Part shown: piece after piece, positions 1,167 to 51,087 of the stretch
Numbering within the stretch: position 1 is the first letter of the stretch
Layout of the letters: each line of letters starts with the position of its first letter
Origin: Oceanidesulfovibrio indonesiensis
Lineage (GTDB): Bacteria > Desulfobacterota > Desulfovibrionia > Desulfovibrionales > Desulfovibrionaceae
Direction of reading: 5' to 3'
Assembly (NCBI RefSeq): GCF_007625075.1
Contig: NZ_QMIE01000001.1
Coordinates: forward strand, 248,001 to 312,000
DNA length: 64,000 nucleotides
Notes under the pieces: model-generated
Database searches by the model: none
Told to the model about the DNA's origin: nothing
What the model saw: the letters and a program-made list of their open reading frames with translations, nothing else
Made by a program: the position numbers and the translations under genes

Positions 1167-1194
1167 TCTACAAAAATTCGTAGATGATTGTAGA
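1167..1194. repeat. Inverted repeat TCTACAA / TTGTAGA in divergent promoter region
   Basis: Seven-base arms at 1167-1173 and 1188-1194 are perfectly complementary around a 14-base AT-rich spacer. The site lies midway between the divergent starts of cbiK (1081) and the CheB-CheR gene (1265), where an operator would be expected. No protein can be assigned to it. Confidence 0.35.
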
Positions 1195-1264
1195 ATGGGA
1201 AATAGCCCGAAAAATACTCGGTCGTTGCCGCGCATGCGCACACAAATCAAGCAAGGAAGCTGAC

Positions 1265-4216
1265 ATGGCCCCACAGGATACGGACAACAAGTCGAACACG
1301 TCGCCGTCCTCAGACAGTCGGCCGGCGGCGGCAAGGCCAGACACGGCAAAGCCGTTCTACATCGTAGGCATCGGCGCGTCGGCCGGCGGGTTGGAGGCGT
1401 TGGAGTCCTTTTTCGACAACATGCCGCTCGGTACGGACTGCGCGTTCGTAATCGTCCAGCACCTCTCGCCGGACTACAAAAGCCTGATGCCCGAGCTCCT
1501 GAACCGGCATACGCAGTTCAAGATACAGCAGGCCGAGGAAGGCATGCGGGTGGAGCCGGGCCACATCTACCTGAATCATCCAAAAAAGAACCTGATCATC
1601 TTCAATGGCACGCTGTTTTTCGCGCCCAAAGAGGACGGACTCAACCTGCCCATCGACATCTTCCTGCGCTCGCTGGCGGATGATCAGGGGGAGAAGGCTA
1701 TCGGCATCATCCTTTCCGGCACAGGCACGGACGGCACCCGCGGCATCCGCGCCATCAAGGAGGCCGGGGGCATGGTGATGGTGCAGGACGAAGAGAGCGC
1801 CCAATTCGACGGCATGCCGCGATCGGCAGTGAGCACGGGCATCGTGGACTACGTGCTTCCGCCGGGGCGCATGCCCGACGAATTGAAGAGCTTCATCGCC
1901 GGCCGGTACTCCCTGGCCAGCAGAGGCGGTCAGCAGGCTCTTGGCTCTGAGGATTCCGTGGCCAAGATACTCGGGATGATCCGGACCAGGACAGGCATCG
2001 ACTTTTCCTTCTACAAGCCCAACACCATCATCCGCCGCATCGAGCGGCGCATGGGCATCAATCAGATCGAGACGGCCGAGGAGTACATCCGGTTCATGGA
2101 GGAGGGGCCCAACGAGGTGCAGACTCTTTTCCGCGAGATACTCATCGGCGTGACCAAGTTTTTCCGCGAACCGGAGGCGTTCGAGGCGCTCAAACAGAAG
2201 GTTTTGCCGGAGATATTCCGGGACCGGCCGGCCAGCGAGCCTGTGCGCATCTGGGTGGCCGGCTGCTCCACGGGCGAGGAAGCCTACAGCCTGGCTGTCA
2301 TCTTCGATGAGTACTGCGAGGAGAACGGGCTGCGCCACGACATCAAGATATTCTCCACGGACATTGACAAGGACGCGCTGGATTTCGCTTCATACGGCGT
2401 CTACCCGGAGTCCATCGTGGCGGACATCTCCATGGAGCGGCTGGCCAGGTACTTCACCAAGAAAGGCGACAGCTACCAGATCAAGTCGCGGATTCGCGAA
2501 CGGGTCATCTTCGCCTACCACAACATCCTCAAGGATCCGCCGTTTGCGCGCACCGACCTCATCAGCTGCCGCAACCTGCTCATCTATCTGCAAACCCCCT
2601 TGCAGAAGCGGGTGTTGAACAACTTCAAGTTCTCGCTCAACCCGAACGGTTTCCTGTTCCTGGGCTCCAGCGAGACGGTCGGCGATTCCTCCTCGTTCTT
2701 CCGTTCCATAGACGTGAAGTGGCGGCTGCTGCAGAACCAGGGCGGCCATGCGCGCATGGACGCGGCCAGAACCATGACCGACGCGCATGAAGCCATGCGC
2801 AGGTTGGACCATCAGCGTCCGGCCGTAGCCGCACCTGTGAGCAAGGAACAAAGGGCCGGGGATTCCGTGCTGGAGGATGTCATCGCCGCATGCCTGGCGC
2901 CGGCCGTGCTCGTGGACGAAAACCGGCGGGTGCAGCATATTTTCGGCGACGTGAGCAAAGTGCTCCATCTGCCCAAGGGCCGCATGAACACGGACATCAC
3001 CCAGATGGCGGTCAAGGATCTCTCCATCCCCCTGGCCACAGGCCTCCAGCGAGCCATGAAGAACATGGAGGAGGTGGTTTACCGGAACATCGGCGTGCAC
3101 GGGAAGAATGGCGAGAGCTCGGTGTTTCATATGGCCATACGCCCCGTTGCTGAGCATGAGCCGGCGCGCTTCATCGTGCTCTTCGAAGAAGGCGGCGCAG
3201 CCGAGTCCGAGGAGAAGGGACAAGCCGTGGAGTACGACCTGGAAGAGCACGCCCAGAAGCGCATCCAGGATCTGGAGCAGGAGCTCCAGTACACCAAGGA
3301 AAACCTTCAGGCCACGGTGGAGGAGGTGGAGACTTCCAATGAGGAGTTGCAGGCGACCAATGAGGAACTCCTGGCCGCCAACGAGGAGTTGCAGTCCACC
3401 AACGAGGAGTTGCAGTCCGTGAATGAGGAGCTCCTCACTGTGAACGCCGAGTATCAGAAGAAGATCGCCGAGCTCACCGAGCTGAACGACGACATGGACA
3501 ACCTCATGGCTTCCACGGGCATCGGCACGCTGTTCATCGATGCGGACCTGTGCGTGCGCAAGTTCACCCAGCCGGCGGCCAGGGTGTTCCATCTCATCAA
3601 GTCGGATATCGGCCGGCCCATCGCGCACATCTCCAACGAGCTGGAGTACGAAGACTTCCACAAGGACGTGGAAACCGTGCTGCGTACGTCGCAGAAGAAG
3701 GAAGCCGAGGTGCGAAGCAAGGACGGCTCCTGGTATCTGGTGCGCATCATGCCCTACCGCACCGGAAGCAAGGAGGTCACAGGAGTGCTGGTCTCGTTCA
3801 TCGACATAACGGACCGCCACCTGGCCCAGCAACAGGCGCAGAACCACCACGAAGAGTTGCTCAAGCTGCTGGAAACCTCGCCGGCTGCGACCATCATGGT
3901 GGGCAAGGACGGGAACATCCGGTTCGTGAACGAAGAAGCCGTCAGGCTCATCGGGCTGGATCGCGAGAAGCTGACTGGCCTGGATATCTTCGATGCCGGA
4001 CTTGGGATGACGGATGCGAACGGCGCCGCCCTTGCACCGGAAAAGAACCCGTTCGAGATGATCAGGCAGAGCAGGGAGCCGCTTTCCGGGCAGACCGTCG
4101 AGTTGCACCCGAACGCCTCGCCCGTCCTGGTCAGCGTTTCGGGCAAACCCGTCATCAGTCAGCGCGGCAGGTTCGAGGGGGCCGTGTTCAAATTCGAGCA
4201 GCTTGCCCGCGACTAG
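1265..4216 (+). CDS. CheB-CheR-PAS fusion protein
   Basis: 983 aa. ATG at 1265 is preceded by AAGGAAG and is preferred to upstream in-frame codons. Domain order: CheB-type methylesterase (about 30-215) with the catalytic triad visible as S39 (GASAGG), H66 (VQHLSPD) and D156 (GTGTDGT); CheR methyltransferase (about 235-495) with FFREPEAF, the SAM loop [13 protein letters not shown] and CRNLLIYL; a long coiled coil built of NEELQxxNEELL heptads (about 675-745); and two PAS domains (about 750-870 and 880-980). There is no receiver domain in front of CheB and no histidine-kinase domain, although relatives of this architecture often carry one at the end. It is probably a cytoplasmic signalling protein working with a separate kinase; the neighbouring hybrid kinase at 4449-6542 converges on it. 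Confidence 0.93.
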
Positions 4217-4448: not shown

Positions 4449-6542
4449 TCAGGAGCCGCGCTTGTCCAGCAGCTGCTGCACCCGGGCCAGTATGGCGTGG
4501 AGCTCCTTCATGTCCAGGGGCTTGGACAGGTAGAAGTCCATGCCTTTGTCCAGGAAAACTTCCTTGTCGCCTTTCATGGCGTATGCGGTCATGGCCACAA
4601 TGACCGTATCCTGCGGCAGTCCGTCCGAGCCGGCGCGGATGAGCCTCGTGGTTTCCACGCCGTCCAGTTCCGGCATCTGCACGTCCATGAACACGCAGTC
4701 GAAGGGTTGCTTTCGCAGCGCTTCCACCACGGCCTGGCCGTTTTCCACCGCAACCACTTCGTGGCCGATCCTGCTGAGCAACTGTGTGGCGAAGGTGCGG
4801 TTCACGAGGTTGTCTTCGGCGAGCAGAATTTTGAGCGGCCGTGTGCCGCCCGTGGGTTCGATTTCCGTGTCCGTTGATGTGCTGGACCGAGCGGCTTGTC
4901 CAGGCACCTCTTCTACGGGCAGGGAAATGAAGACCGCAGTGCCGCGCTCCATCTCGCTCTCCACGCACAGGGAGCCGCCCATCATCTGCACCAGCCCGCG
5001 AACGATGTTCAGACCCAGACCTGCGCCCTGGTGCTTGCGCGAGTAGGAATCATCCGCCTGAGCAAAGGAATCGAATATGCGGTTGAGGGCCTTGTCCGGA
5101 ATGCCGCAGCCGGTATCCTCCACGGTCAGCAGCAGCCTCGTCCGTTCCGGGGCCGGGCTGATGTTCCAGAGCCCCACCCGCACCTCGCCTCTGGATGTGA
5201 ACTTGATGGAGTTGGCGATAAGGTTGTTGAGAATCTGCCGGAGCCGGCCCTCGTCGCCCCTGATGCGCTTGGGCAGGTCATTGCCCAATGTATAGCTGAG
5301 CCCAACGCGACCGAGAGCGGCCTGGTTTGAAAAGGAATCGGTCACGGATTGCGTCAGTCGCTCCAGATTCACCGGATCGCTGCGCATCTCCATGCGCCCA
5401 GCCTCGATCTTGGAGAAATCCAGGATGTCGTTGATCACGGTGAGCAGGCCTTTGGCCGAATCCATGGCCGTGTGCAGGTAGTTGCGCTGTTCGTCGTCCA
5501 GCCTGGTGGTCAGGGCGAGCTGAAGCATGCCCATGATGCCCGAGATTGGAGTCCGTATCTCGTGGCTCATGTTTGCCAGGAAACGGCTTTTGGCCATGTC
5601 CGCTGCTTCGGCGGCGTTCTTGGCGGCCACGAGTTTCTCGTGAGTTTCCTTGAGTTCGGAAATGTCCTGCACAATACAGATGAAGGCCTTGGGCACGTTG
5701 CCGGACGAGAGGATGGAACTTGCGGTGATGGATACGGGAAACTCGCGCCCCTCTCTGGTCTGGAACGTGGTTTCCAGCTGGGCTTTGCCCCGGGCGATGA
5801 TGCGGCTCAGGTCCCTGCGCAGGGAATCCATCCTCTGCCGGGGCCAGTAGGGGAAAGGCGGGCCGAGGTCGAGCAACTCATCTCGCGGGAAGCCGGTCAG
5901 CCTGCAGAACGCCTCGTTCACGTCCACGTGGAAGCCGCGGTTGTCTACCACCACGATGCCCAGGCCGGCGTTCTGGATGATCGAACGCTGCTGCTTTTCG
6001 GCTTCCTTGAGTTGTTTCTGCGCCTCCGCCACATCGCTGATATCCGTGAGGCTGGCGACGAGCTGGACCGAGTCCTCGCTGCGGTTGAGCAGGCGTACCT
6101 GAAACCGGATGTGCGAGATGTCTCCGGTTTTCGCTTTGAGCCGCAGCTGACGGACCACGCCGGAAGCACCCCGGACGGCGTCGTTCACGGCGGAGAAGAA
6201 CCGGACATGGTCCTGTGCGTCCAGATAGATGACGAGCGGTTTGCGAAGAAGCTTGCCGCAAGGCGCGCCAAGCATGTCCGAAGCGGTGCGGTTGGCCTTG
6301 ATGACGGCGCCTTGGCCGTCGAGCAGCAGATAGCCGCCCGGTGCGGCTTCGAACAGCGTCTCGTATTCGTCCTTGAGCTTGAGGAGCTCTTCCTGCCGTG
6401 AGGACAGCTCTTCGTTCTGGAGCTCCAGTTCGATCTGATGAATGCGCATTTCATGGAGGATCTTGTTCTCCTCGTGCGCGTGGCCGTCCCCGGACTGTCT
6501 GGAAAGGATTTCGAGAGCTTTATTGCGGAGCGTATCGTTCAT
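4449..6542 (-). CDS. PAS-PAS hybrid histidine kinase with C-terminal receiver
   Basis: 697 aa from ATG 6542 (an in-frame TTG lies three codons upstream; no strong ribosome site for either). N-terminal coiled coil (about 20-60), PAS (about 60-170), a second PAS (about 190-310), HisKA with phosphorylatable H327 in MSHEIRTP, HATPase with NSIKF, DTGCGIP and GAGLGLNIVRG, then a receiver with D620 in FMDVQMPELDG and the YLSKPLD lysine. No membrane segment is seen, so it is cytoplasmic. A C-terminal receiver without an HPt domain usually hands phosphate to a separate HPt protein; two orphan HPt genes occur in this window (33977, 40867). Converges on the CheB-CheR gene. Confidence 0.92.
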   Translation of the reverse strand: MNDTLRNKALEILSRQSGDGHAHEENKILHEMRIHQIELELQNEELSSRQEELLKLKDEYETLFEAAPGGYLLLDGQGAVIKANRTASDMLGAPCGKLLRKPLVIYLDAQDHVRFFSAVNDAVRGASGVVRQLRLKAKTGDISHIRFQVRLLNRSEDSVQLVASLTDISDVAEAQKQLKEAEKQQRSIIQNAGLGIVVVDNRGFHVDVNEAFCRLTGFPRDELLDLGPPFPYWPRQRMDSLRRDLSRIIARGKAQLETTFQTREGREFPVSITASSILSSGNVPKAFICIVQDISELKETHEKLVAAKNAAEAADMAKSRFLANMSHEIRTPISGIMGMLQLALTTRLDDEQRNYLHTAMDSAKGLLTVINDILDFSKIEAGRMEMRSDPVNLERLTQSVTDSFSNQAALGRVGLSYTLGNDLPKRIRGDEGRLRQILNNLIANSIKFTSRGEVRVGLWNISPAPERTRLLLTVEDTGCGIPDKALNRIFDSFAQADDSYSRKHQGAGLGLNIVRGLVQMMGGSLCVESEMERGTAVFISLPVEEVPGQAARSSTSTDTEIEPTGGTRPLKILLAEDNLVNRTFATQLLSRIGHEVVAVENGQAVVEALRKQPFDCVFMDVQMPELDGVETTRLIRAGSDGLPQDTVIVAMTAYAMKGDKEVFLDKGMDFYLSKPLDMKELHAILARVQQLLDKRGS

Positions 6543-6624
6543 GAGCAGCAAGGCCGTGGATAGAGAGTAGAAGCTACGATTCTATAGACGACAAGGCGGA
6601 TGAAGACAAGGAGGGATCGAGATT

Positions 6625-7503: not shown

Positions 7504-9258
7504 TCAGAACGGTTTGTCGAACGCGCCCAGGGTGATTTTCTGGCGCTTGCCGACGCCGCCGCTGCGTTGTTCCAGCTGCTGGACGCGGTGGCTGAGCTCG
7601 CTGCCTTCGAGAATGCGCCAGTGGGCCTCGATGAGTTCGTGCAGCATCCTGGCCTGCTGGGGGTCGAGTTCGCCGAGGGATACGGCGCGGATGACGGCCT
7701 CGCTCGCCTGGAGGATGTGCTCCTGCGTGTCCAGCGGCGGCAGATCGATATGCAGCCGGTACTCCTCGGCCGGCGCGAGGACACGTTCGATGCACAGGGT
7801 CAGCGCCTGAACGTCGCCCTCCAGAGCCTTGGAGATGACGGCGTCGGCCAGCGCGTCGGCTTTGTCCATGAGCTTCTGGCGCATCATGGCGGAGGAGGGG
7901 GCCTCCAGGGATACTGCGCTGGGGTCCTGAATCTCGGGAACGCTCTCCGTCGCGTGACCACCGCTCGTCCTTTCCACGGGAGCCTCCTTGGCAGCCTGGC
8001 GCGGCTTGTTGGCGGAAATGGTAAGCCCGGATTTGATGGGCCCGGAAGAGGTGAAGTATCCAGTGTTGGAGAGCATGTCGCGATACTCGCCGTGTTGTTG
8101 CTCCTTCCCCGTGTCAGTGGTTCGCGCCGGTCCGGGTTTGGGCGCTTCCGGAGACGTATTGGGAGCGAGCTCGCCCTCCCTGGAGGAAACACGCTTGCCG
8201 ATGGCCTGTCTGAGCTTGTCCAGGTCAACGCTTGGTGCGCCGGCAGGGGCTCCGGCGGCAGGTGGCGTTTTTTGGGGCTCCGGTTCTTTGGGGCTTTCAG
8301 CGTCCATGCCGGCCGGCTCCTTGATGCCTGGAGGAACACCTATGGACGGCTGCCGGGAAAGATCCGGAGTGCCGAGCATGTCAGTTTCCGCGCCTGATAT
8401 GGGCGATCTGCTCGAAGAAAAGTCCGGCGAGTCCGTCCTGGTGGTTGATGGGGGCGTCGGTTCGGCGACTTTCCCTGCATCCGGTTTTTTTTCGTCTTCC
8501 AGCTCAAGCTTCGGCTCGGGCTTTTTGGTTTCGGTCTTGGGCTCAGGCTTGGGTTCCGGCTTTTTCTCCTCGTCCTTGGGCTCTGCCTTTTTTTCTTCGG
8601 CCTTGTGCCCGGACTTCGATTCGGCCTTTTGGTCTTCAGGCTTCTCCCCGGCCGTTTTTTCTACGGATTTGGGCTCGGGCCTGGAGTCTGTCCTGCTCTC
8701 TTCGGCCTTGGTTTCAGCTTTCGGCTCAGGCTTCTTCTCCTCGGCTTTGTCTTCGGCCTTCTTTTCCTCAGGCTTTGGCTCGGGCTTCTTGCCCGTATCC
8801 TTTTGCTCCGGCTTTTTCTCGTCGGCCTTGGTTTCGACCTTTGGCTCAACTTTCTTTTCCTCGCCCTCCTGTTCAGCTTTCCTGCCCTGGCTTTTGGGCT
8901 CCGGCTGTTTTTCCTCAGGCTTGGACTCGGCTTTTTTTGCCACAGCTTTGGGCTCGGGCTCAGTCTTGGGCTCGGCCTTGGGTTCCGGCTTTTTCTCTTC
9001 CGCCTTGGCGGGTTCGGGCTTTGGCTCAGGCTTTGTTTCTGGCTTGGGTTCTTCGGGTTTTTTATCCTTTGCCTTGGCTGCGGATTCTTCTTGCTCGGAC
9101 AGACGAGCCATCTCCTCCCAGGAAGCGCGATCTTCGTCAGTGAGTTCGTTTTCCCACACTTCTCGCGCTGCACCTGCGAGGATGCTTTTGTCTACTTTGT
9201 ATTCCTTGCTGAATACTTCGGTAAAGTAATCGAAGCCGTTGCGATACTTGGCGCTCAT
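7504..9258 (-). CDS. Large Lys/Pro/Glu-rich low-complexity protein with conserved ends
   Basis: 584 aa from ATG 9258 (GGAG ten bases upstream; upstream in-frame codons lack a site). Residues 1-62 are an ordinary folded-looking domain (MSAKYRNGFDYFTEVFSKEY). Residues about 66-262 are almost wholly K, P, E and A in repeats such as KKPEPKAE and EEKKPEPK. A Ser/Pro-rich stretch follows. Residues about 458-565 form a helical domain beginning MMRQKLMDKADALADAVI, with KALEGDVQAL and a GELDPQQARML helix. From memory this resembles the tail of small proteins annotated DUF5681; not checked. No signal peptide or membrane segment. Divergent from 9562-13278, which has the same vocabulary. Function unknown; a DNA- or partner-tethering role is only inference. 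Confidence 0.75.
   Translation of the reverse strand: MSAKYRNGFDYFTEVFSKEYKVDKSILAGAAREVWENELTDEDRASWEEMARLSEQEESAAKAKDKKPEEPKPETKPEPKPEPAKAEEKKPEPKAEPKTEPEPKAVAKKAESKPEEKQPEPKSQGRKAEQEGEEKKVEPKVETKADEKKPEQKDTGKKPEPKPEEKKAEDKAEEKKPEPKAETKAEESRTDSRPEPKSVEKTAGEKPEDQKAESKSGHKAEEKKAEPKDEEKKPEPKPEPKTETKKPEPKLELEDEKKPDAGKVAEPTPPSTTRTDSPDFSSSRSPISGAETDMLGTPDLSRQPSIGVPPGIKEPAGMDAESPKEPEPQKTPPAAGAPAGAPSVDLDKLRQAIGKRVSSREGELAPNTSPEAPKPGPARTTDTGKEQQHGEYRDMLSNTGYFTSSGPIKSGLTISANKPRQAAKEAPVERTSGGHATESVPEIQDPSAVSLEAPSSAMMRQKLMDKADALADAVISKALEGDVQALTLCIERVLAPAEEYRLHIDLPPLDTQEHILQASEAVIRAVSLGELDPQQARMLHELIEAHWRILEGSELSHRVQQLEQRSGGVGKRQKITLGAFDKPF
8783..8812. repeat. 30-base exact inverted copy of 10719-10748
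   Basis: This stretch is the exact reverse complement of 10719-10748. In the two divergent low-complexity genes it encodes the shared peptide PEQKDTGKKP. Identity at the nucleotide level, despite freedom at wobble positions, points to duplication or gene conversion between the genes. Confidence 0.85.
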
Positions 9259-9561
9259 AAGTCCGTATCTCCGCTGCGTTCTGCGTGTCTGTTGGTCAGT
9301 CGACCATCCGGGATTCCGCCACGAGGCGACCCTAGCACGTCCCTTTATCATGAGCAATTGCCCGGGATTAACATCGACGGCCTGGATGTGCGCCAGTTCC
9401 GGCCGTCCGGGGGGCAATTCATGCCGAAAATGCCATAACCATTGAAAATAGCATGGTTTAGGGGTTGTTAACTCTTGCGCGGATGTGATACAAGATTTTC
9501 ACATAGGTGTGTCCGTGTATTTATTGCGTGATCAACAGCCTCTTTCGCAGGCGCATACAAC
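9259..9561. other. Divergent intergenic region of the low-complexity gene pair
   Basis: About 300 bases separate the starts of the two divergent genes. The half near 9562 is AT-richer (about 9430-9540) and holds a TTGTTA hexamer near 9467 followed after 16 bases by GATACA, a poor match to a sigma-70 promoter. I see no convincing operator or structured RNA. Confidence 0.4.
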
Positions 9562-12500
9562 GTGACTACGATGGATAAAGAGCTCGTCAGTATTGCAGAC
9601 ATGGCTGCGGCTACCGGGATGAAGGAAAGCGACGTGCATCGCTATGTTTCAGAACATCCCGGTCTTTTTACTCCTGCGACGAGCTCCGGGCGTACGCTTT
9701 ACGATGCCGACGTCGTCGAAGTGTTGTCGCGTGTCCAGGAACTGGCGGGAGCCGGACTTTCCAAACAGGAGATCGAGGACGTGGTGAAACGCTCTGCGGG
9801 CTCTTTATCCGAGAACTCGCTGTCCAGCCAGGAGGCCGGGCTGTCCGAGTCGCTCAAGGAAGCTGTCAAAGCCGGCGTGGCAAGCGGCATCCATGCCCTT
9901 GTACGCGAGCTGCAGGAGACAAACAGGCGGCTTGCCTATCTCGAATCCAGAATCGAAGACACTTTGGGAAAGCCTGCCGGCGGCGAGGGCGATGCGGTGA
10001 CCGCCGAGTGGCCTGGCGCATTCATGACAGGCGGACATGCGCCACATGCGATGCCGGAGGACAAGGAGGCCCTCACCCTGTTCGAGTCGCCTCCGGAAGA
10101 GCATGTGCCCGAGCAGGAATCCCTGTTCAGCCGGGAGGCCGGGATGGCGCGGGAAACAGCCAGGAAGGAAGAACAGGCGCCGCCACCCGAAGCCGCACCC
10201 GCAGACGTCGCAGTCGAAGCTTCCGGGACAACCAAGCCCGCAGAGGATTTGGGACACGGATTTTCTCAAGACATCCCGATGGTTGCCGAGCCTTCCGAAA
10301 AGGATGAATCTCCCAAGACCGCGGCGGAAATGGCCGAGGCCGTGGCCGATCTGCAAAAGACAGTGGCCGATGCGGCCGGCGCCGAGCCGTCCCGGACGCC
10401 TGAACCTGCCGGCACAGCGACGCTCAGGAAGGAAGAAACCACGTCCGGAAAGGTTGCAGACCGACCCGCTGCCGAACCAGGCGAGATCAAGGCAACCGCG
10501 CCGGAAGCCATGCCGGCCGAGCCGTCGACTCAGAAAGTCGGAACCACCCCCGAGCCGGGGGCAAGTAAGCCCGCGGTTGAGACGAAATCAAAGTCCGCGG
10601 ACAAGAAACCGGAGACTGAAGCCAAGAGCGGAAAGGAAAGCCCGGAGCCCAAGGTCGAGGCTGAGAGCGAGAAAAAGAAAGCCGGGGCCAGCGCCGAATC
10701 CAAGACTGACAAAGAGAAGCCGGAGCAAAAGGATACGGGCAAGAAGCCGGAGACCAAGTCAGACGGCAAGAAAGCCGAGGCCGGCAAGCCCACGGTCGAG
10801 ACGGAATCGATACAGCCGCAGACCCCGGCCGCGGCGGCCGGTCTCAAAACCGAAGAAATAATAGCGGAACAGGAGCAGGCGGCATCCGAGCCCGAAGCCG
10901 TCCCGACAGCCGACATCCTGGATCTCGGCGAGGAGTTCGAAGGCATCGAGTTGGCGGACGACTTTTTCGAAGAGGTGCCGACTATCGATCTTGAGGAAGA
11001 TGCGATTGTCAAAGAGGAAGCCGCCAGTCCTGCGACTGAAAAGGCCAGCTTTGATTTCCAAGGGTCCGAATTCGATATCGAAACAGCCACTGCCGATCTG
11101 CTGAGCGGCCTTGAGGAGAAAGAGGCCGGAAAATCCTGGGAATTCGAGGTCAACGAGCTGGAAGACACCGGCAAGACGCTTCCTGATTTTTCCGAGGACA
11201 ATGCCGAGGACACCTGGGAGTTCGATTCGCCTGAGAAGAAGACCGAGAAGGGGGCGTGGGCGAAGGAGTCCGCGACACGAGAAGAGCCCGATACATCGGC
11301 GCACGCCGCCGGGACGGCCGCGGACACCGTCAAGATATCGGAGCTGGACGAACTGGGCCTGGACGAGACCCAGAAGCCTGTATCCTCCGATCTTGGAGTC
11401 GATTTTGGCGAATTGCCGCCTACGAAGGAACCCGACAAAAAGCCTGATGCGACGAAGGCTGGCTCCCTCGGTCCGGGTGAACCCGCGCCGGCCAAAACCG
11501 GTGCCAAGCCGGCCGAGGCGGTCAAGGACGTGGAAACGACTGCGGACATCGCCGTGGACTCGCCGAAACCGGCATCCGAACCCGGAGTGGAGCCCAAAGC
11601 CGCGGAATCCGCAAAGCCCGAAGCAAAGCCCGAAGCCAAACCCGAAGCCAAGCCCGGCGTAGCCGCTGGAGCCAGGGCCAAATCGGAAGTCGAATCTGCT
11701 CCCAAGAAGCCTGAAGAGAAGTTTGGGACGGAGCCTGAAGAGAAAATGACCAAGGCTAAAACCGACGAGAAAAAGCCGGGAGAGGCCGAGGGTAAGAAGC
11801 CAGGAACACCCGAGAAACAGCCCGACTCCAAGGCTGACCGGAAGTTGGTGGAGACGAAGGACAAGCCGACCGAGACGGCGCCAGGCATGTCTGGCGAGAA
11901 AAAGCTCGATGCAGGCGTGCGCGCAGAGAAATCCACGCCCGCAGCCAAAGCCGAAGCGACTGTCGAGCCGAAGTCTGCCGAGAAGGTTGCCGAGAAGCCT
12001 GCAGAGAAGGTGGTCGGGAAATCCGGTGAGAAGGCTTCTGCTAAAGAGCCCGGGGAATCCGAAGCCAAGAAACCCGAACCTGCCAAGTCTGAACCGTTGG
12101 CGGCGAAACCTGCTGCGGCCGGGGCCAAAGCCGAGTCTGCAAGCAAGGCGGAGCCCGGAGCGCCAGGCCGAGATGTCTCCAAGGCGGCGCCTGCTGTCGA
12201 ACCCCAACCCGCTGGCGGTGGGGAGAAAACGGGTGTGAAACCGGTTGGTGCGGATCTGGGCAAGGAAGCCGGGAAGGAATCCGCCAAGGCTGCCGATGTC
12301 ACCGCAGAGAAACCTGTCGAATCAGCCAAGGCTCAGGTTGTACCCGGACTATCCGCCCATGAGGCCGCGCAGGCGCAATCGGAGACCATTCCGGAATCCA
12401 AATCCGCCAAAGGCGAGGCTGAACCGGCGCCGGAACCTGTCGAACCGGCCGCGCAGTCTTTCCCGAAATCTTCTGCGCCTGAGGACAAGAGTGCGGCGGA

Positions 12501-13278
12501 GCCGGCGTCCAAGCCTGCGTCCAAGGCTGCCGTCGACGAAACGCGGTCAGATGAAACCAGGCCAGAAGAATCGCAGAAAGATAAAGCCGACGCCACGGCC
12601 GGAGCCGGGGTGGAAGCCGCAAAGTCCTCGGCCGGACCGCTTGAAAAGCCGGCAAAGTCCGAGACAAAGGCATCCAGGGCCAAGGCGGGCAAACTTGACG
12701 AAAAGGCTGCCGAGCAGGATGCCGAGTCCGGTTCACATGATATGTCTGCGGCACTTGATGAGCTGATGGCCGAGCCCATAATTGAAGCCGAGCCCATCTT
12801 TGATGACGAAGCGGAGGCAGACGAAGCGAAAGGGAAAAAGCCCGAGAAGCCTGAAGAAACCGAAGCAAGGAAGCGGGAGAAGGCCAGGGCCGAAGCCAGG
12901 CGCAAGGAAGAGGAAGAGGAAACGGCCGACATCATCCTAGAAGTGAGCGAAGAGGAGGAGGATGCCGAGGCTTCCACCGAAACTCCGGACCGCACCATCC
13001 AGTTCAACGAGTACAATGAACCGACGCAACCGCCTGTCACGCCTCGCGAAACCAGGCGCGTTATCTGGTATATGTACAAGCGTGGATGCGAGCTCACCCA
13101 GATTGCCGACTACCTCGCTTTGGAACGAGTGCCGACGTTCTCCGGGCGGGGCACCTGGAACGCCGAGCGTGTCTCGCAGGTTGTCAAAACGCTGGAGCGC
13201 CGCGTGATCGAGCGCAAGCAGAAACGCGAGAGCGAATCGAGCAAGGTCCCCAACGCCATGGATGACCTGATCGGTTGA
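9562..13278 (+). CDS. Giant low-complexity protein with MerR-like N-terminus and recombinase-like C-terminus
   Basis: 1238 aa from GTG 9562 (an ATG lies three codons later). Residues about 8-70 read as a MerR-type helix-turn-helix: SIADMAAATGMKESDVHRY, then RTLYDADVVEVL. Residues about 150-1130 are Glu/Lys/Pro/Ala-rich and likely disordered, with an acidic block near 450-620 (DLGEEFEGIELADDFFEE) and runs such as PEAKPEAKPEAKP. Residues about 1160-1228 (RRVIWYMYKRG, then QIADYLALERVPTF and GTWNAERVSQVVKTLE) resemble the helical module after the catalytic domain of large serine recombinases, but no catalytic domain is present. Two DNA-binding-like ends on a long tether suggest a DNA-bridging or scaffolding protein; this is inference. 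A strong terminator follows. Confidence 0.8.
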   Translation: MTTMDKELVSIADMAAATGMKESDVHRYVSEHPGLFTPATSSGRTLYDADVVEVLSRVQELAGAGLSKQEIEDVVKRSAGSLSENSLSSQEAGLSESLKEAVKAGVASGIHALVRELQETNRRLAYLESRIEDTLGKPAGGEGDAVTAEWPGAFMTGGHAPHAMPEDKEALTLFESPPEEHVPEQESLFSREAGMARETARKEEQAPPPEAAPADVAVEASGTTKPAEDLGHGFSQDIPMVAEPSEKDESPKTAAEMAEAVADLQKTVADAAGAEPSRTPEPAGTATLRKEETTSGKVADRPAAEPGEIKATAPEAMPAEPSTQKVGTTPEPGASKPAVETKSKSADKKPETEAKSGKESPEPKVEAESEKKKAGASAESKTDKEKPEQKDTGKKPETKSDGKKAEAGKPTVETESIQPQTPAAAAGLKTEEIIAEQEQAASEPEAVPTADILDLGEEFEGIELADDFFEEVPTIDLEEDAIVKEEAASPATEKASFDFQGSEFDIETATADLLSGLEEKEAGKSWEFEVNELEDTGKTLPDFSEDNAEDTWEFDSPEKKTEKGAWAKESATREEPDTSAHAAGTAADTVKISELDELGLDETQKPVSSDLGVDFGELPPTKEPDKKPDATKAGSLGPGEPAPAKTGAKPAEAVKDVETTADIAVDSPKPASEPGVEPKAAESAKPEAKPEAKPEAKPGVAAGARAKSEVESAPKKPEEKFGTEPEEKMTKAKTDEKKPGEAEGKKPGTPEKQPDSKADRKLVETKDKPTETAPGMSGEKKLDAGVRAEKSTPAAKAEATVEPKSAEKVAEKPAEKVVGKSGEKASAKEPGESEAKKPEPAKSEPLAAKPAAAGAKAESASKAEPGAPGRDVSKAAPAVEPQPAGGGEKTGVKPVGADLGKEAGKESAKAADVTAEKPVESAKAQVVPGLSAHEAAQAQSETIPESKSAKGEAEPAPEPVEPAAQSFPKSSAPEDKSAAEPASKPASKAAVDETRSDETRPEESQKDKADATAGAGVEAAKSSAGPLEKPAKSETKASRAKAGKLDEKAAEQDAESGSHDMSAALDELMAEPIIEAEPIFDDEAEADEAKGKKPEKPEETEARKREKARAEARRKEEEEETADIILEVSEEEEDAEASTETPDRTIQFNEYNEPTQPPVTPRETRRVIWYMYKRGCELTQIADYLALERVPTFSGRGTWNAERVSQVVKTLERRVIERKQKRESESSKVPNAMDDLIG
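10719..10748. repeat. 30-base exact inverted copy of 8783-8812
   Basis: Reverse-complement partner of 8783-8812, lying in the low-complexity part of the 1238-aa protein gene about 1.9 kb away. It encodes PEQKDTGKKP, as its partner does. Confidence 0.85.
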
Positions 13279-23982: not shown

Positions 23983-25317
23983 CTACAGGCCTTCTTCCGG
24001 GCCGATCTCCATGTCCGGCGTGATGATCGAAGGCGGTATGTCCTTGGGCAGCTGCGGCCTGTTCACGTTGGGCAGGCTCGGGGCCACTTCGGTTTGCGGC
24101 TTTTCGAATGTGGGGTCCGGCGGCTCCACCTGCTCCACCGGCGAGAACTCCGCTTCGGCACGGCGTTTCGCCTCCAGGGCTTCCTGCCAGCTGAAGAGTG
24201 CTGCGTCCGGGTAGAACGCCGTCCAGGCGAACCACATCACATCGAAACTGTCGAGCAGGGCAAGGCGGTTGCCCGCCAGTCGGCCTTCCACGGCTCGTCC
24301 GTCAGGATGCCAGCGTGTGCCGGTCTCCACGTCGCGATAGACGCCGTCCCTGTGCACGAAGTGGAGGAGGTAGTTGCCCACTCGGCGATCGAAAAGTCTC
24401 GGCGCGTCGAGTTCATCGTCCCAGATGGAAACCACCGGCGTCACGCCGGCATCAAAGTTGGCTGCCCGCGGCCGGCGGAGGGAATCGCGCACCACAGCCA
24501 CGTTGAGATTATCCAGTTGCAGGCCCAGGATGCGCGTCTTGGGCGGCAGCTGATCATCGTAGCTGGCCAGAGGGTGCAGGACACGCTCGTCCTGATAATA
24601 GGTGTCCGGCCTGTTGTAGGAACCGTAGGGGTCCTCGCCGTAATTCCGGCGGTGCCCGGTGGCGCGGGAGAGCACTTGCGCGTCCGGATATTTCAGTCTG
24701 GCGCGTCTCCACGTGGTCCAGACCAGAGGGAACGATTCCAGCTTTCTGCCTTGCAGCGGACCGCCTATGGCCAAGCCGGTGAGCTGCGGCCAGACGCTGT
24801 TCGTGGAATAGTCGAAGAGCAGATGGTTGCCGTTGAGCAGCGAGCCGAGCGTACCGAACGGCGTATCAAAGCGGTCGATCCGGCCAGCGTATCCACGCAC
24901 GCAGCCCGTGACCGGGCAATACGTGACGGAACGACGGCGGGCGTTCTTGCCTTCGCCCAGCACCTCGTTGACAACCACGTGCCAGACGAGCACCTGGCGG
25001 GGATAAATGCGCGTCACGCCGTCCGGGTTGCCATAGTCCAGAACGAAGACGTGTTCGGAGTCATCCATGCCCAGGGCTGCATCCGGTACGGAAATGAAGT
25101 TCGGAGCATTGATGGGCGGGATGCTGTTGGGCCCCAGGCCGGTCTCATGGATCAGGTCGCGCAGTTCGGCGAAGTACGCTTCGCTCGGGCCGGCGTCCAT
25201 GGTCTCGGGGTCATTGTCCGGCAGCGCGCCGTCCTGGCAGAAGGCGGTGGCGGCGCCTGCGAGCAAAAAGAGGCAGGCGAGCAGGGCCAGGCAGATCGGA
25301 TTCGGCATCGTTCGCAT
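23983..25317 (-). CDS. Secreted DUF3179 family protein
   Basis: About 444 aa from ATG 25317 (ATG 25308 and several upstream codons are alternatives). The signal peptide is CLALLACLFLLAGAATA, so the protein is exported. The DUF3179 core is plain: YPRQVLVWHVVVNEVLG, then RRSVTYCPVTGCVRGYAGR, NSVWPQLTGLAIGG and the RATGHRRNYGEDPYGSY block. The tail (about 385-444) is Pro/Glu-rich. The function of the family is unknown; conserved Cys and His residues suggest metal binding or a redox role. Confidence 0.85.
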   Translation of the reverse strand: MRTMPNPICLALLACLFLLAGAATAFCQDGALPDNDPETMDAGPSEAYFAELRDLIHETGLGPNSIPPINAPNFISVPDAALGMDDSEHVFVLDYGNPDGVTRIYPRQVLVWHVVVNEVLGEGKNARRRSVTYCPVTGCVRGYAGRIDRFDTPFGTLGSLLNGNHLLFDYSTNSVWPQLTGLAIGGPLQGRKLESFPLVWTTWRRARLKYPDAQVLSRATGHRRNYGEDPYGSYNRPDTYYQDERVLHPLASYDDQLPPKTRILGLQLDNLNVAVVRDSLRRPRAANFDAGVTPVVSIWDDELDAPRLFDRRVGNYLLHFVHRDGVYRDVETGTRWHPDGRAVEGRLAGNRLALLDSFDVMWFAWTAFYPDAALFSWQEALEAKRRAEAEFSPVEQVEPPDPTFEKPQTEVAPSLPNVNRPQLPKDIPPSIITPDMEIGPEEGL

Positions 25318-25490
25318 ACGGTGTCCCATCAGGCGTATTGCATAAAGCGCCAGGATGTGCGCTTCTGTCTTCGCGGCATTCGCCTTGAGCCAGGGGAACC
25401 GGTCTGTGAAGACAGAAGTCATTGCGTCATATCGGCGCAAAACGCGAATACTCTAGCGGCATCCGCCCCGTTCCCGCAACATCTCCGAAA

Positions 25491-29712: not shown

Positions 29713-29928
29713 TCAACGATTCCGAGCCACGCGGAATGAATAGTGCTGTTTGATCAATTATTATGGTGTTTTTCGGGTAATGTAGCCTGGGGGTTGCAGG
29801 TGTATCCAAAACAACGCACCCCCTTGAGTACTGCGGCTCCTGCAGGTAAGCAGTCCGGAGGACCACGAATCCTCGTACACGGGCCTGCTGTCTGCGGCCG
29901 GTATCGGGAACGGGTCCACGGACACACC

Positions 29929-32433
29929 ATGAAAAGTTTCAATCTGCTCAAGCATCAGAGTCTCCAGGCCAAGTTCCTCTTCGGGCTCGCGGCGATCATC
30001 CTGTTCGGCGGGCTCATTTTTGCCGGCGCCACGTACTACACCCTGCACGACCTGCTCGAAAGCGAGGTGGCGGCCAAGGGCGAGCTTGTCCTGGCGCAGG
30101 CCGAAGCCGTGCAGGACTATGTGCGCCACACTCTGCGGCCCGCAATGTATGAGGCCCTGGGCGACGAGGATTTCATCATCGAGGCCATGTCCAGCTCCTA
30201 CATTTCCCGGCGGGTCATGGAGAACGTTGGCGTCGACCGCGAACCGTTCATCTATCGGCGAGCGGCCATCAACGCGCGCAATCCCAACTTCGAGGCGTCC
30301 GAGCTGGACAGGGAGCTCATCGGCTACTTCCAACAGAACCCCGGCATGGCTACCTGGTCCGGCTACAAGGACATCAACGACGTAGAGCATTACGTCACCG
30401 CACACCCCGTGGAGTTTCAGCAATCGTGCCTGCGCTGCCACGGCGACCCGTCGGATTCCCCGCACGAGCTCATCGAGCGATACGGCGCCGAGCGGGGGTT
30501 CGGCCACACGGCCGGCGAAATCGCCGGAGTCACCGCACTGGCCCTGCCGGTGGCGCGTTCGGTCTCCAGCATCCGCGGCGCAGCCATCACGTTCATCTCG
30601 CTGGCCGTGGGCGGCGCGGTGTTCTACTTCGCCGTGGCAAACCTGCTGTTCAACCGTCTTGTAGTGCACAGCCTGCGTCGCGCTGCGGATGTTTTTCCGC
30701 GATATTTCCCGGACGACAAGGAAGCGCAGAACCTGACACGCTCCAAGCTGCCCTCCTGGAGCGAACCGGGCGACGAGATCGAGGAGGCGCTGAGCGCGAT
30801 GGAGAGCCTGGCCAGCCACCTGGCCGAGGCGCGAAAGGAGCTGACGCTCTACGCTACGGATCTTGAGCGTATGGTGGACGAGCGCACGGAAGCCCTCTCC
30901 CTGGAAGCCGGGGAGAGGCGTTCCGACGTGAGGCTTTTCGTCCGGCTGTTGGAGCTGCTCAACGAAAGCCGCACCCGGCGGGAGCTCATCCGCCACACGC
31001 TTCCCGTTGTGGCCAGGCGGTTCCACGCCGACCGCGCCGTGTTCATGTGCACGGTGGCGACGCGCAACGAGATTCACTGGCCCAATACGGACATCGTCAC
31101 CCAGGATACGCTGTCCGAGGAGTGGCGGCGCATCGTGGAGACGGGCGAAGGCATTTACGAGACGCACCGCGCCATTGTGCCCGTGCAATCCGCCGTGGAC
31201 GCGCTGGAAGGCATTCTGTGCCTGTACTGGGACGATGCGGATTTCTATCCGGAAAAGTCCATGAACGTGCTGGGCGCCATCGGCCGACAGCTCGGCGTGT
31301 CCATGGAGAATCTCAACGCCCTGGACAGCCTGCTGCGCCAGAACGAGTTGCTCCAGGCGATCATCGAGGGCATTACGGACCCGCTTCTTCTGGTGGACGG
31401 GCGCTGCAACGTGGTCCTTGCCAACCAGGCCGCGCGGATGCTGACGCAGGACAGCATTGTGCCGCCTGAAGACGAGCGCGCCTGCCTGTGCAGCATTCTT
31501 GGCGGCGAAATGCGCTATCAGGACGGCTCGGCCATGCCCCGCGGCACGGCTCTGGAGGAGACGCTTCACCGGGGCGTGCCCTCCACCTACGAGTTGACGT
31601 TGCCGGAGGGCCGGACCTTTGCTGTGAGTCTGTATCCGCTGCCGGCGCTGGACGACATGGGCGACCGCCGCGTGGTCGTCTATGCGCGCGAAACCACGGC
31701 CGAGCGCCGCATGCTCGCCAGTCTGCAACAGCACGAAAAGCTCATCACCGTGGGGCGGCTCGCCGCCGGACTTGCCCACGAGATCAACAATCCGCTGGGC
31801 ATCATCCATTGCTACGCCGAACTGCTCATGGCGTCGGCGACCGACGATCAGCAACAGGCCGACGCGCAGGTCATCCTGGAGCATACGCACAAGGCGCAGA
31901 AGGTTCTGCAGGACCTGCTCAACTTCGCCCGCTCGCGCAAGCCGGGCCATGGTCCATGCCATCCCGGGCTCGTGGCCCAGGAGTCCGCCGAGGTCTTCTC
32001 CGTGCAGGCGGAAAAGAATGGCGTGATCATGAAAACCGCCGTGGAGCCTGAACTGCCCTCGTTGCGCGTGGATTCTCAGGCGCTGGAGCAGATCATCTCC
32101 AACCTTGTCCTCAATGCCCTCGATGCCGTATCCAGCGTGGAGCGTCCGGGCGAGATAACAGTGGGCGCCGGCATGGACGAGCAGGGCGTGTATCTGCAGG
32201 TGTCGGACAACGGCCCGGGCGTTTCTGACGATATAATGGATCGCATCTTCGATCCGTTCTTCACCACCAAAGAGGTGGGCAAGGGCACCGGGCTCGGTCT
32301 GGCTGTTGTCTATGGACTGGCGCAGGAACTGGGCGGCGAAGTGCAGGTCGAACCCGTAGCCGAAGGGCCGGGCGCCGTGTTCACCTTGCGGCTGCCCGGA
32401 TCCCTGCTCGTCGAAGCGGAAGAGGTGTTTTAG
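29929..32433 (+). CDS. Membrane sensor histidine kinase with heme-binding DUF3365 domain
   Basis: 834 aa; ATG 29929 is chosen because it opens [20 protein letters not shown] and the first membrane segment follows at once. Order: membrane segment (about 15-37); periplasmic DUF3365 sensor (about 45-210) with one c-type heme motif C167-L-R-C170-H171; second membrane segment (about 215-240); coiled-coil linker; GAF-like (about 350-470); PAS (about 475-580); HisKA with H617 in [13 protein letters not shown]; HATPase with [10 protein letters not shown] and [13 protein letters not shown]. NtrB-like kinase. The heme suggests redox or gas sensing. The stop abuts the ATG of the NtrC-type partner. Confidence 0.92.
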
Positions 32434-33837
32434 ATGGTCAAGCAAAAGGCGTCGCCAACGCTGCTCCTGGTGGACGACCAGGAAGAATACACCCGCGGCC
32501 TTGCTCGGCTGGTGGAGGGCGAGCATCCGGACTACCGGTGCCTGCGCGCCGCGAGCGCCGCGGAAGCGATGGATATCCTGGAGCAGGAGACCGTGTCCCT
32601 GATGCTCACGGACCTGCGCATGCCGGGCATGAACGGGCTTGAGCTGCTCAAGCAGGCCCTTGCAGTGGAGCCGGTGCTCTCGGTGGTGCTGCTCACGGGA
32701 TACGGCACCATCGAGACGGCGGTGGAAGCGCTCAAGGCCGGGGCGTACGATTTTCTGACCAAACCCGTGGACAAAGAGATTCTGCTGCGCACCCTGGACA
32801 AGGGGCTGGAGCGCAGCCGGCTGCTGGAGGAGAACCTGTCCCTGCGCTCCCTGGTCGCCTCCCGTGAGCTCGATGACGAACTCGTGGGCGAGTCCACGGC
32901 CATGCGCCGGCTCAAGGAACAGATACGCGCCGTGGCCCAGAGCGACTACACGGTGCTCATCACGGGCGAATCCGGCACAGGCAAGGAGCGCATCTCCCGC
33001 GCCATCCACAAGCTCTCTTCCCGGCGGGACAAACCGCTGCTTACCGTGAACTGCCCGGCAATCCCGGACCAGCTCCTCGAAAGCGAACTATTCGGTCACG
33101 AGAAAGGCTCCTTCACCGGGGCGGACCGCCACCGCAAGGGCATTTTCGTGGAGGCTTCCGGCGGCACGCTCCTGCTCGACGAGATCGGTGACATCTCCAT
33201 GAACATCCAGACCAAGCTGCTGCGCGTGCTGCAGGAACGGGAGGTGAGGCCCGTGGGCTCCAGCCGCAGCGTGCCCGTGGATGTGCGCATCCTGGCCTCC
33301 ACCAACCGGGACCTGCAGGAAAAGATTCGCGAGGGCCTGTTCCGCGAGGACCTGTTCTACCGGCTCAACGTGCTCACGGTGCAGGCTCCGGCGCTTTCGC
33401 GCCGCTGCGAGGACGTGCCCCTTCTGGCCAACTACTTCCTCGCGGAAAGCTGCCGGGAGATGGGCATACCGGCAAAGCATCTGGCGCCGGAGGTGCCCGG
33501 GTTCCTCGCCGCCCGGCAATGGCCCGGCAACGTGCGCGAGCTCCAGAACTTCATGCGCCGGCTGTGCGTGTTCTGCCGGGGCGAGGAAGTGGATATGCCC
33601 CTCGTATACCTTTCCCTGAGCGCGGAAGGCGACAGCTGCGCACGCGGAGAGGCGACCGAGCTGTACAAGGACGCCAAGACGCGCGTGGTGGATGCGTTCA
33701 CCCGCGCCTATGTGACGGACCTGCTGCAGCGCACCCAGGGCAACGTGTCCGAGGCAGCGCGGCTTTCCGGTCTGGAGCGCGTCTCTCTGCAGAAGATCAT
33801 CAAGCGGCATGAGATCGATGCGGGCCGGTTCCGTTAG
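32434..33837 (+). CDS. Sigma-54-dependent NtrC-family response regulator
   Basis: 467 aa, starting on the base after the kinase stop. Receiver (1-125) with D60 in LTDLRMPGMNG and K in FLTKPVDK; AAA+ domain (about 150-385) with Walker A GESGTGKE (178-185), the sigma-54-contacting GSFTGA loop (225-230), Walker B GGTLLLDEIGD and an arginine-finger region; Fis-type helix-turn-helix at the end (about 425-462, GNVSEAARLSGLERVSLQKI). It should activate RpoN promoters once phosphorylated by the adjacent heme-sensor kinase; the closest candidate target is the divergent transporter operon. Confidence 0.95.
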   Translation: MVKQKASPTLLLVDDQEEYTRGLARLVEGEHPDYRCLRAASAAEAMDILEQETVSLMLTDLRMPGMNGLELLKQALAVEPVLSVVLLTGYGTIETAVEALKAGAYDFLTKPVDKEILLRTLDKGLERSRLLEENLSLRSLVASRELDDELVGESTAMRRLKEQIRAVAQSDYTVLITGESGTGKERISRAIHKLSSRRDKPLLTVNCPAIPDQLLESELFGHEKGSFTGADRHRKGIFVEASGGTLLLDEIGDISMNIQTKLLRVLQEREVRPVGSSRSVPVDVRILASTNRDLQEKIREGLFREDLFYRLNVLTVQAPALSRRCEDVPLLANYFLAESCREMGIPAKHLAPEVPGFLAARQWPGNVRELQNFMRRLCVFCRGEEVDMPLVYLSLSAEGDSCARGEATELYKDAKTRVVDAFTRAYVTDLLQRTQGNVSEAARLSGLERVSLQKIIKRHEIDAGRFR

Positions 33838-46028: not shown

Positions 46029-46161
46029 GGATTTCTTGCCTTGCTTCGGATAGTTCATGCCGATATGCTGAATCCGCAAAAGGTTTGGCGGATTGTTCCG
46101 GGCGGTGCGGATTCGCCCGTTTTGAACTGACGGCGGGAACGCAGTGGAAGGAGTCGAAAGA

Positions 46162-49015: not shown

Positions 49016-49792
49016 GTGAATGTACGAGTGCTCGCCGTGGCCAACCAGAAGGGCGGTGTCGGCAAGACCACCACCGCGCTCACGCTGGCCGCGGCGTTCG
49101 CCAAGGAAGGCCGCAGCGTCCTGGTCCTGGACCTGGACCCGCATGTCAGCGCCTCCATTCACATGCGCTTCTATCCGGAGAAGCTCAGACACACCGCGTA
49201 CGACCTCTTCACCAAGCCCAAGAGCGAACGATGGCACACCGCATGGAACAAGGTCACATACCCGGCCGCCGGCGGCATATTCGACTTCGTTCCCGCGCAC
49301 ACCAAGCTTTCGGACCTGGACGTGGACCTCGCCGGGATCAAGGGCAAGGGAAGCCTGCTGGTGCGGGCGCTCATGAACGTGCCGCAGGACTACGACTACG
49401 TCATCCTGGACTGCCCGCCGTACCTGGGCGTGCTCCTGGCCAATGCGATAATGGCAGCGAACCTGGTGATCATCCCCATCCAGACGGAGTACCTGGCTCT
49501 CAACGGCCTCAAGCTCATCTTCTCCACCATGCGTACCCTCAACCGGGTGCGCCGGGAGCCTGTGGGCTACCGCGCTCTGGCCACCATGTTCGATTCCCGG
49601 GCCGGCGCGTGCAAGCGCGTGCTCTCCCTGCTGCGGGACAAGCTGGGCGACAGGATGTTCGAGACCATTATCCACCACGACACCAAGCTGCGGGAAGCCA
49701 GCGGCAAGGGCGCGGTCATCTACGACCTTTATCCGGAATCGCGCGGAGCCCTGGAGTATTCGCAGCTCGCCGCGGAGATTGAGACATTATGA
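49016..49792 (+). CDS. ParA-family ATPase in a chemotaxis operon (ParC-like)
   Basis: 258 aa, GTG 49016. Deviant Walker A KGGVGKTT (residues 12-19) in AVANQKGGVGKTTTALTLAA, Walker A' VLDLDPH, Walker B YVILDCPP and the DNA/partner-contact segment TEYLALNGL. The stop overlaps the start of the CheW-like gene (ATGA). ParA-like proteins in che operons (ParC in Vibrio, PpfA in Rhodobacter) position chemotaxis clusters at the pole or mid-cell, and this is the likely role here. Confidence 0.9.
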   Translation: MNVRVLAVANQKGGVGKTTTALTLAAAFAKEGRSVLVLDLDPHVSASIHMRFYPEKLRHTAYDLFTKPKSERWHTAWNKVTYPAAGGIFDFVPAHTKLSDLDVDLAGIKGKGSLLVRALMNVPQDYDYVILDCPPYLGVLLANAIMAANLVIIPIQTEYLALNGLKLIFSTMRTLNRVRREPVGYRALATMFDSRAGACKRVLSLLRDKLGDRMFETIIHHDTKLREASGKGAVIYDLYPESRGALEYSQLAAEIETL

Positions 49793-50691: not shown

Positions 50692-51052
50692 ACATATCCT
50701 CATAGTGGACGATTCCAAGACAGTGAGGAATCTGGTTGCCTTCATCATGAAGAAGGAAGGCTTCCGGGTTTCCACTGGAGAAAACGGCTTGGACGGCCTG
50801 GAAAAGCTCTACACCAATCCGGATGTGGATCTGATCATCACGGACATCAACATGCCCAAGATGGACGGGTTCACTTTCATCAAGTCCGTGCGGGAGCAGG
50901 AAGCCTACCGTGATGTGCCCATCGTGGTGCTCTCCACGGAAGGGCGGGAAGAAGACATCGACGCCGGCATCAGCCTTGGCGCCAATCTGTACCTCGTCAA
51001 GCCCGCGCAGCCGGAGAAGCTCGTCAAGAACGTGAATATGCTCCTTGGGTAG
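50684..51052 (+). CDS. cheY: Chemotaxis response regulator CheY
   Basis: 122 aa, GTG 50684 with AAGGAGG five bases upstream; overlaps the cheW end by eight bases. Receiver only: D9-D10 (LIVDDSKTV), D54 in ITDINMPKMDG, T/S in VVLSTEG and K in YLVKPAQPEKL. Receives phosphate from CheA. A start 21 bases upstream is possible but leaves a worse spacing. Confidence 0.94.
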   Translation: MAKHILIVDDSKTVRNLVAFIMKKEGFRVSTGENGLDGLEKLYTNPDVDLIITDINMPKMDGFTFIKSVREQEAYRDVPIVVLSTEGREEDIDAGISLGANLYLVKPAQPEKLVKNVNMLLG

Positions 51053-51087
51053 TGCCATGGGGCGGCCGGGAAAGGAATGATACGACC

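Follow-up and report, generated by a model that had tools for sequence, protein, structure and literature searches.

TubY is an accessory protein of type III partition in Bacillus plasmids, and excerpts of its published description present a MerR-like N-terminal helix-turn-helix, a helix that follows it and a second DNA-contacting region near the C terminus (PMC7762940). RacA of Bacillus subtilis tethers DNA by means of a helix-turn-helix and a coiled coil, with sites that are dense near the origin according to the sections consulted (PMC6593407), and the KfrA and KfrC proteins of broad-host-range plasmids join a DNA-binding alpha-helical protein and a partner in the service of plasmid stability (PMC7783346). 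Herein we describe two divergent genes with a layout of this sort, found in a stretch of 64,000 nucleotides from Oceanidesulfovibrio indonesiensis (G000:C1:248001-312000). We refer to this whole stretch as the window, to its genome as G000 and to its genus as g1. TubY, KfrA and RacA resemble the longer of the two proteins in layout and are its nearest working analogues, and we make no claim that the locus belongs with any of them.

TubY forms a coiled-coil tetramer, carries a cluster of lysines and works with TubR and TubZ in the excerpted account (PMC7762940), whereas the long protein examined here is chromosomally encoded, has a different partner and bears an integrase-type module after a long disordered linker. 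Neither such a module nor a giant linker belongs to RacA as the consulted sections describe it (PMC6593407), and KfrA has an alpha-helical coiled coil instead of a disordered linker in the part of its source that we cite (PMC7783346). The separate parts of the new pair are domains of known kinds. However, our survey of the open-licence literature, judged mostly by titles and abstract openings, revealed no disordered DNA-binding or MerR/recombinase-domain plasmid proteins of this kind, and no precedent for the combination, the pairing or the exchangeable long linkers. We tentatively read the pair as two proteins that form a flexible, DNA-tethered scaffold on the chromosome, and give this reading somewhat less than an even chance of being correct.

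The initial annotation had proposed two large genes of 584 and 1238 codons facing apart, and both divergent open reading frames (ORFs) are present at the locus. The short gene (7504..9258, minus strand) begins with an ATG at 9258, which is preceded by GGAG as read from the sequence, and ends with a stop at 7504; it encodes 584 amino acids and is kept in three other genomes (G001, G015 and G054). The long gene (9571..13278, plus strand) encodes 1235 amino acids, or 1238 if the GTG at 9562 is used. Given that the same-genus relative G001 has GTT in place of this GTG and retains the next ATG, the ATG at 9571 is more likely the start. The 312 bp that separate the genes (9259..9570) include blocks that, by eye, are conserved within the genus. 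A scan of this region for sigma-70-type promoters gave 0 matches, and no common palindrome stood out when the intergenic regions of all four relatives were compared.

Conservation of the divergent pairing, which the initial annotation had also suggested, was borne out by profile searches of 288 genomes of the family. The genes are adjacent and divergent in four of these, namely G000 and G001 from genus g1 and G015 and G054 from genus g15. The C-terminal domain of the long protein was matched in five of the 288 genomes, with E values of 1.1e-56 to 1.7e-58 in the four that carry the pair and a weak fifth match in G305, and the N-terminal domain of the short protein was matched in six, comprising the same four, G014 (E = 1.0e-30) and G278 (E = 6.7e-4). 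The last of these is probably a chance match, as the ORF resembles an aminopeptidase. The C-terminal domain of the short protein, searched for in 99 genomes, was found in 15; the four genomes with the pair carry it in frames of 617-936 amino acids, and the remaining matches listed sit in frames of 153-228. A phylum-wide sample of 345 genomes showed the short N-terminal domain in G000 only. A heptapeptide-based scan of contigs from 84,980 species, which may omit records of the window's own genome and which did not return G001 or G015, yielded one confirmed record, that of G054 (the metagenome-assembled genome Desulfovibrio sp. W18). Across the genomes covered, the system is paired and rare.

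The long protein ends in a basic module of the serine-integrase recombinase type (13000..13275, plus strand), which is supported by profiles, a structural model and charge. The initial annotation had described a recombinase-like helical end lacking a catalytic domain, and this stands: the profile matches are to serine recombinases, helices are predicted, and neither the resolvase catalytic domain nor the zinc ribbon gave a Pfam match in the long protein. Large serine recombinases thus have the helix module in common with it and differ by those two domains. A search with PF07508 alone against the single sequence remained below the cut-off (E = 0.099). However, a profile built from the module and three plasmid-type proteins (see below) matched in 15 of the 288 genomes. 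Beyond the pair and the plasmid-type proteins themselves, these matches comprise 10 weaker places, seven of which resemble serine recombinases by eye; one of the seven (L129) was confirmed by Pfam to have resolvase, recombinase and zinc-ribbon domains. The other three are helical proteins that end in the module (L127 820-1635, L128 1486-2253 and L130 1030-1689), in which an N-terminal DNA-binding domain is not obvious and of which L127 has no Pfam match.

The helices of the module are predicted with block values of the predicted local distance difference test (pLDDT) of 89-95 for residues 71-130 in a model of 150 residues. The best structural matches of the model, ranked by VIA, are DNA-binding domains, which it resembles: the small terminase 6ejq (Z = 7.0, root-mean-square deviation (rmsd) 2.2, 57 residues aligned), PAX6 (Z = 5.4), sigma region 4 (Z = 5.2) and a serine integrase (Z = 5.0), where a Z of about 7 or less can reflect a common helical arrangement alone. 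All structure rows quoted herein are from VIA, since Foldseek proper returned nothing at E = 0.001 or better with either model. The module has an isoelectric point of 9.2-9.9, and its nonsynonymous (dN) and synonymous (dS) divergence between G000 and G001 is 0.126 and 0.85, respectively.

The plasmid-type proteins are three ORFs of 214, 234 and 247 amino acids on short plasmid-like contigs, two of G305 and one of G310, both in genus g25 (L066 7624-8328, L098 10330-10974 and L099 3155-3898). Each has an N-terminal helix-turn-helix (MerR_1 above the cut-off in one of the three, weaker or other helix-turn-helix matches in two), then a helical middle part and, at the C terminus, the same module. 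When aligned with the long protein by hhalign, they match at the C terminus (P = 7.6e-7) and at the N terminus (P = 1e-10, with G015 excluded from the profile as the domain is missing there), and none of 200 column shuffles did as well in either comparison. Both ends of the long protein are therefore shared with proteins from plasmid-like contigs, which suggests that it has parts in common with a plasmid-maintenance type. The small proteins differ in that they lack the long linker, and the short partner was not seen alongside them on these short contigs. L099 adjoins a Rep3 initiator gene identified by Pfam, the neighbour genes of L066 and L098, which are cut by contig ends, gave no replication-initiator Pfam match, and all three contigs also hold small ORFs that look by eye like serine resolvases. 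A plasmid collection yielded only four records at E = 0.7 with the long C terminus as query. With a plasmid relative as query it yielded 24, of which 23 are from Bacillus, Priestia or Heyndrickxia and the best 20 match the MerR end only.

These relatives raise the prospect that the pair is a domesticated remnant of plasmid or phage maintenance, or of defence, with a role in mobile DNA rather than in the host chromosome. Both C-terminal domains do have relatives in mobile-element-like settings, and the PADLOC model mad1 matches the MerR end, although that end only (E = 5.3e-7). However, in the window the pair is surrounded by genes for housekeeping and signalling, no other PADLOC model matched either protein, and tblastn found no relatives in viral contigs, so that we regard this explanation as improbable. 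A phage gene pair was rejected on related grounds, as only one of 50,697 phage records was matched in addition to the negative tblastn result, and it matched the DUF5681-like end of the short protein alone (E = 4e-7). Searches of the window proteins with NCBIfam and PHROGs gave weak matches only.

At its start, the long protein carries a MerR-like helix-turn-helix (9589..9789, plus strand), in agreement with the initial annotation; PF13411 matches it with E = 5.1e-8 and 33.3 bits, above the cut-off of 21.6. In G054 this part has diverged and matches that of the window with E = 2.9e-5. The MerR end is acidic, with a net charge of -5 in G000 and G001 and -3 for the MerR-like stretch of G054. Given such a domain, the genes might be an ordinary divergent regulator pair, in which the long protein is a MerR-type transcription factor, the short protein its partner and the linkers merely spacers. 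The Pfam-level match, the divergent arrangement and the intergenic blocks conserved within the genus fit this explanation. It accounts less well for linkers of approximately 390-1000 residues, for the persistence of the pair where the MerR domain is missing (one of four relatives) or diverged (another), for the different neighbours in the two genera, and for a Pfam scan of the long protein in which no effector domain was recognised. We therefore judge it unlikely.

The MerR domain is followed by a conserved helical segment (9841..9972, plus strand), which is kept in all four relatives and is a putative oligomerisation helix. Next comes a linker of approximately 1000 residues (9973..12996, plus strand), assigned by composition and, for the last part, by a low-confidence model; across the four relatives this low-complexity linker spans 537-1001 residues. 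Within it lies a conserved acidic island (10882..11361, plus strand) with two W-x-F motifs, at W526 and W552, which was delimited by identity to G001 and motif counts. Over the island (residues 441-600), windowed identity to G001 reaches up to 0.62, compared with 0.0-0.47 elsewhere in residues 139-1081, and dN between G000 and G001 is 0.29 as opposed to 0.55-0.62 in the flanking linker. The four relatives have two, two, three and three copies of W-x-F per linker, and further linker tryptophans, two in G000 and one in G054, lie outside this motif.

The short protein was modelled with AlphaFold2 from two sequences. Its ends had been described as folded in appearance, and this holds well for the N terminus, where block pLDDT is 79-88 over residues 11-60. 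The C-terminal end reaches 48-75 over residues 461-560, and it is thus folded with moderate confidence only. Between them, values of 33-49 over residues 71-450, together with composition, indicate a disordered linker (residues 65-455; 7894..9066, minus strand), the first part of which is rich in lysine, proline and glutamate (K/P/E). Low pLDDT and composition therefore uphold the proposal that the linkers of the two proteins are disordered.

The N-terminal domain (residues 8-64; 9067..9237, minus strand) consists of three predicted helices (8-20, 24-38 and 41-64) in an arrangement that looks, by eye, like that of an HMG box. VIA returned two entries for the HMGB1 A box (Z = 6.9 and 6.6, rmsd 4.8 and 4.4), scores to which the caution about common helical arrangements also applies, and these are the sole rows among the best 50 that cover the short N terminus. 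An hhalign comparison with six HMG boxes gave a score of 20.6 (P = 0.0013, 23 columns), which none of 300 shuffles equalled, and the domain has the W...E-x-M-A stretch that is found in HMG-box proteins. However, a PF00505 (HMG_box) search up to E = 10 did not match the locus, nor did hmmscan, and the domain is acidic rather than basic, with a net charge of -5 in all four relatives as against +2 and +8 for two HMG boxes. We consider it to be HMG-like in predicted fold only, and protein binding is likelier for it than DNA binding. HMG-clan domains have been reported in Myxococcus, and the portion consulted of a further source mentions HMG-box proteins for eukaryotes only (PMC6936261). We found no bacterial HMG-box proteins of this kind in the same literature survey, again mostly at the level of titles and abstract openings. 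Between G000 and G001 the domain has a dN of 0.022, with synonymous sites saturated.

In G014, a low-complexity protein of 926 amino acids (L042 2636-5413, G014:C245) opens with the same HMG-like domain and has four SRWV motifs (W98, W151, W190 and W236). Pfam gave this protein no match at E = 0.1, and the family profile search detected no C-terminal domain of the long partner in this genome.

The C-terminal helical domain of the short protein (residues 456-565; 7564..7893, minus strand) is DUF5681-like. PF18932 matches it with E = 5.6e-5 and 24.1 bits, below the cut-off of 27.5, and its best solo relative has E = 1.6e-18. It is acidic, with a net charge of -5 to -8. The protein closes with a 14-residue tail, KRQKITLGAFDKPF (7507..7548, minus strand), which is basic (+3), is identical in all four relatives and shows zero amino-acid changes between G000 and G001. 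Sequence searches of the PDB with the three small domains gave at best mago nashi (E = 0.21), a replicative helicase (E = 0.096) and the uncharacterised 2jrt (E = 0.0072). Solo proteins of the DUF5681 type also occur; the 10 that we inspected (L043-L052) have 137-212 amino acids, and several adjoin ORFs that resemble, by eye, primase or ERCC4-type nuclease genes. In the literature survey, DUF5681 came up in a single paper.

DNA-binding-like ends had been proposed for both proteins, and charge divides this claim. The integrase-type module and the 14-residue tail are basic and agree with it, but the HMG-like, DUF5681-like and MerR ends are acidic. Among the terminal parts, basic charge is thus limited to the module and the tail, and it is doubtful that the remaining ends bind DNA.

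The initial annotation had also drawn attention to a K/P/E vocabulary common to the two proteins. This sharing is real and extends to the DNA, where a segment of 116 nucleotides in the short gene (8753..8868, minus strand) is 78% identical to one in the long gene (10663..10778, plus strand). Sharing between the linkers exceeds the maximum of a codon-shuffle null (60 shuffles each) in both g1 genomes, at 51 versus 16.5 in G000 and 99 versus 20.0 in G001, whereas the g15 linkers show no excess (16 versus 16 and 16 versus 18 in G015 and G054). The best shared segments also differ in place, being at residues 131 and 368 in G000 and at 150 and 522 in G001, and no third gene in either genome matches the repeat better than E = 0.2, so that it is confined to the pair there. 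The common wording in genus g1 thus arises from DNA copied between the two linkers, and we rejected the vocabulary as a functional signature.

Lysine content changes sharply as well, from 12.0-20.5% in the g1 linkers to 0.4-1.7% in the four g15 linkers (for the short linkers only, 16.8-20.5% versus 1.7%). As the second genus is without lysine richness, a basic DNA-coating tail is not a conserved feature, and we likewise rejected H1-like coating of DNA as the conserved function. Accordingly, AlgP and other histone H1-like bacterial proteins have a Lys/Pro-rich disordered tract in common with the pair in one genus only, and they differ in that the lysines of the pair are balanced by glutamates.

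Length, by contrast with composition, is maintained: linkers are long in both proteins and in both genera (388-1001 residues). These observations bear on the proposal that the linkers are neutral repeat expansions whose length is meaningless, with small proteins derived from mobile elements as the functional units. Repeat copying in both g1 genomes, the lack of compositional conservation between genera and the fast divergence of most of the long linker (dN 0.55-0.62) speak for this proposal. However, the retention of long linkers throughout, and the persistence of a more conserved island and of W-x-F motifs in the long linker, make it rather unlikely in our view.

The same compositional data apply to a tether that works like AlgP or PhaF and anchors an inclusion (polyphosphate, iron or some other granule or organelle) at the nucleoid. 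The idea of a DNA-attached disordered protein is common to both cases, and the K/P-rich linkers of g1 recall the KPAA tail of AlgP, as excerpts of its description present it (PMC9239181). The lysine-poor linkers of g15 do not, and a Pfam scan of 20 ORFs of the window revealed no recognisable granule gene. We consider such a tether quite unlikely.

With these alternatives in mind, we return to the flexible scaffold. The long protein would oligomerise through the helix near its N terminus, and the module at its C terminus would hold DNA. Its short partner may dock on the long protein via acidic domains, W-x-F motifs and/or the invariant tail, and both together could form a loose nucleoprotein cluster or tether. 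The persistence of the layout through changes in linker composition counts in favour of this reading. So do the joint occurrence of the two genes in four genomes, the small plasmid-type proteins that match the long protein at both ends, and the basic charge of its C-terminal module together with the resemblance of that module to DNA-binding domains. Nearly all of that composition has changed between the genera, while the folded ends other than MerR, the W-x-F motifs and the invariant tail are kept, and the folded ends resemble parts of plasmid and phage type that the chromosome has adopted. The initial annotation had named the lack of a helix-turn-helix at either end of the long protein, or of joint conservation, as observations that would speak against it; we found instead a helix-turn-helix and two genes that are conserved together.

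A more specific version would describe a new kind of chromosome scaffold built from plasmid and phage parts, with a DNA-held protein, a disordered arm of 500-1000 residues bearing W-x-F docking motifs, a partner in which an HMG-like fold is repurposed as an acidic protein-binding module, and linkers that can be rewritten from lysine-rich to lysine-poor while the system is retained. We regard this version as possible, but on the unlikely side. If the scaffold reading is true, the locus is a compact natural case in which to ask what linkers of such length and disorder do for proteins that tether bacterial DNA, and would show how plasmid-type and phage-type modules can turn into a chromosomal system.

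Several observations weigh against the scaffold. Three of the four folded ends are acidic, the MerR-like part is missing in G015, and the structural matches fall in the range of Z where shared helical arrangement could suffice. The kinship with plasmid-type proteins is unspecific at the N terminus, where MerR ends in 157 of the 288 genomes match a G305 protein, and the one match listed for G000 is to a gene other than the long one; at the C terminus, the single-genome match to G305 was just E = 8.4e-4 prior to the profile comparison. The reading is built on fold, charge and conservation, from which we infer attachment, oligomerisation and docking. Furthermore, the pair is rare, and hence is not a general segregation factor, and its gene neighbours differ between the two genera.

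Genome position adds a weak hint of an origin-linked role. Measured to the best dnaA match, the pair is 63 kb away in G000 and 74 kb away in G001, two genomes that are not independent. However, the distance in G015 is 323 kb even if contig C2 is circular, so that proximity to the origin holds for one genus only, which also counts against the scaffold. In G054 the pair and the dnaA match lie on separate contigs. A second DnaA-like match is present in every genome, and just one match (in G014) passed the profile cut-off.

Other genes of the window include a CheB-CheR-PAS fusion of 1010 amino acids (1184-4213, plus strand) near a hybrid histidine kinase (4452-6551, minus strand), and a DUF3179 protein (23986-25440, minus strand; PF11376, E = 5.2e-82). 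Further along, a Tll0287-like sensor histidine kinase followed by a sigma-54 response regulator occupies 29743-33834 (plus strand), and a HEAT-repeat protein of 645 amino acids (46144-48078, plus strand; PF13646, E = 6e-75) is accompanied by CheW and CheA-like genes at 49789-50688 and 51052-54096.

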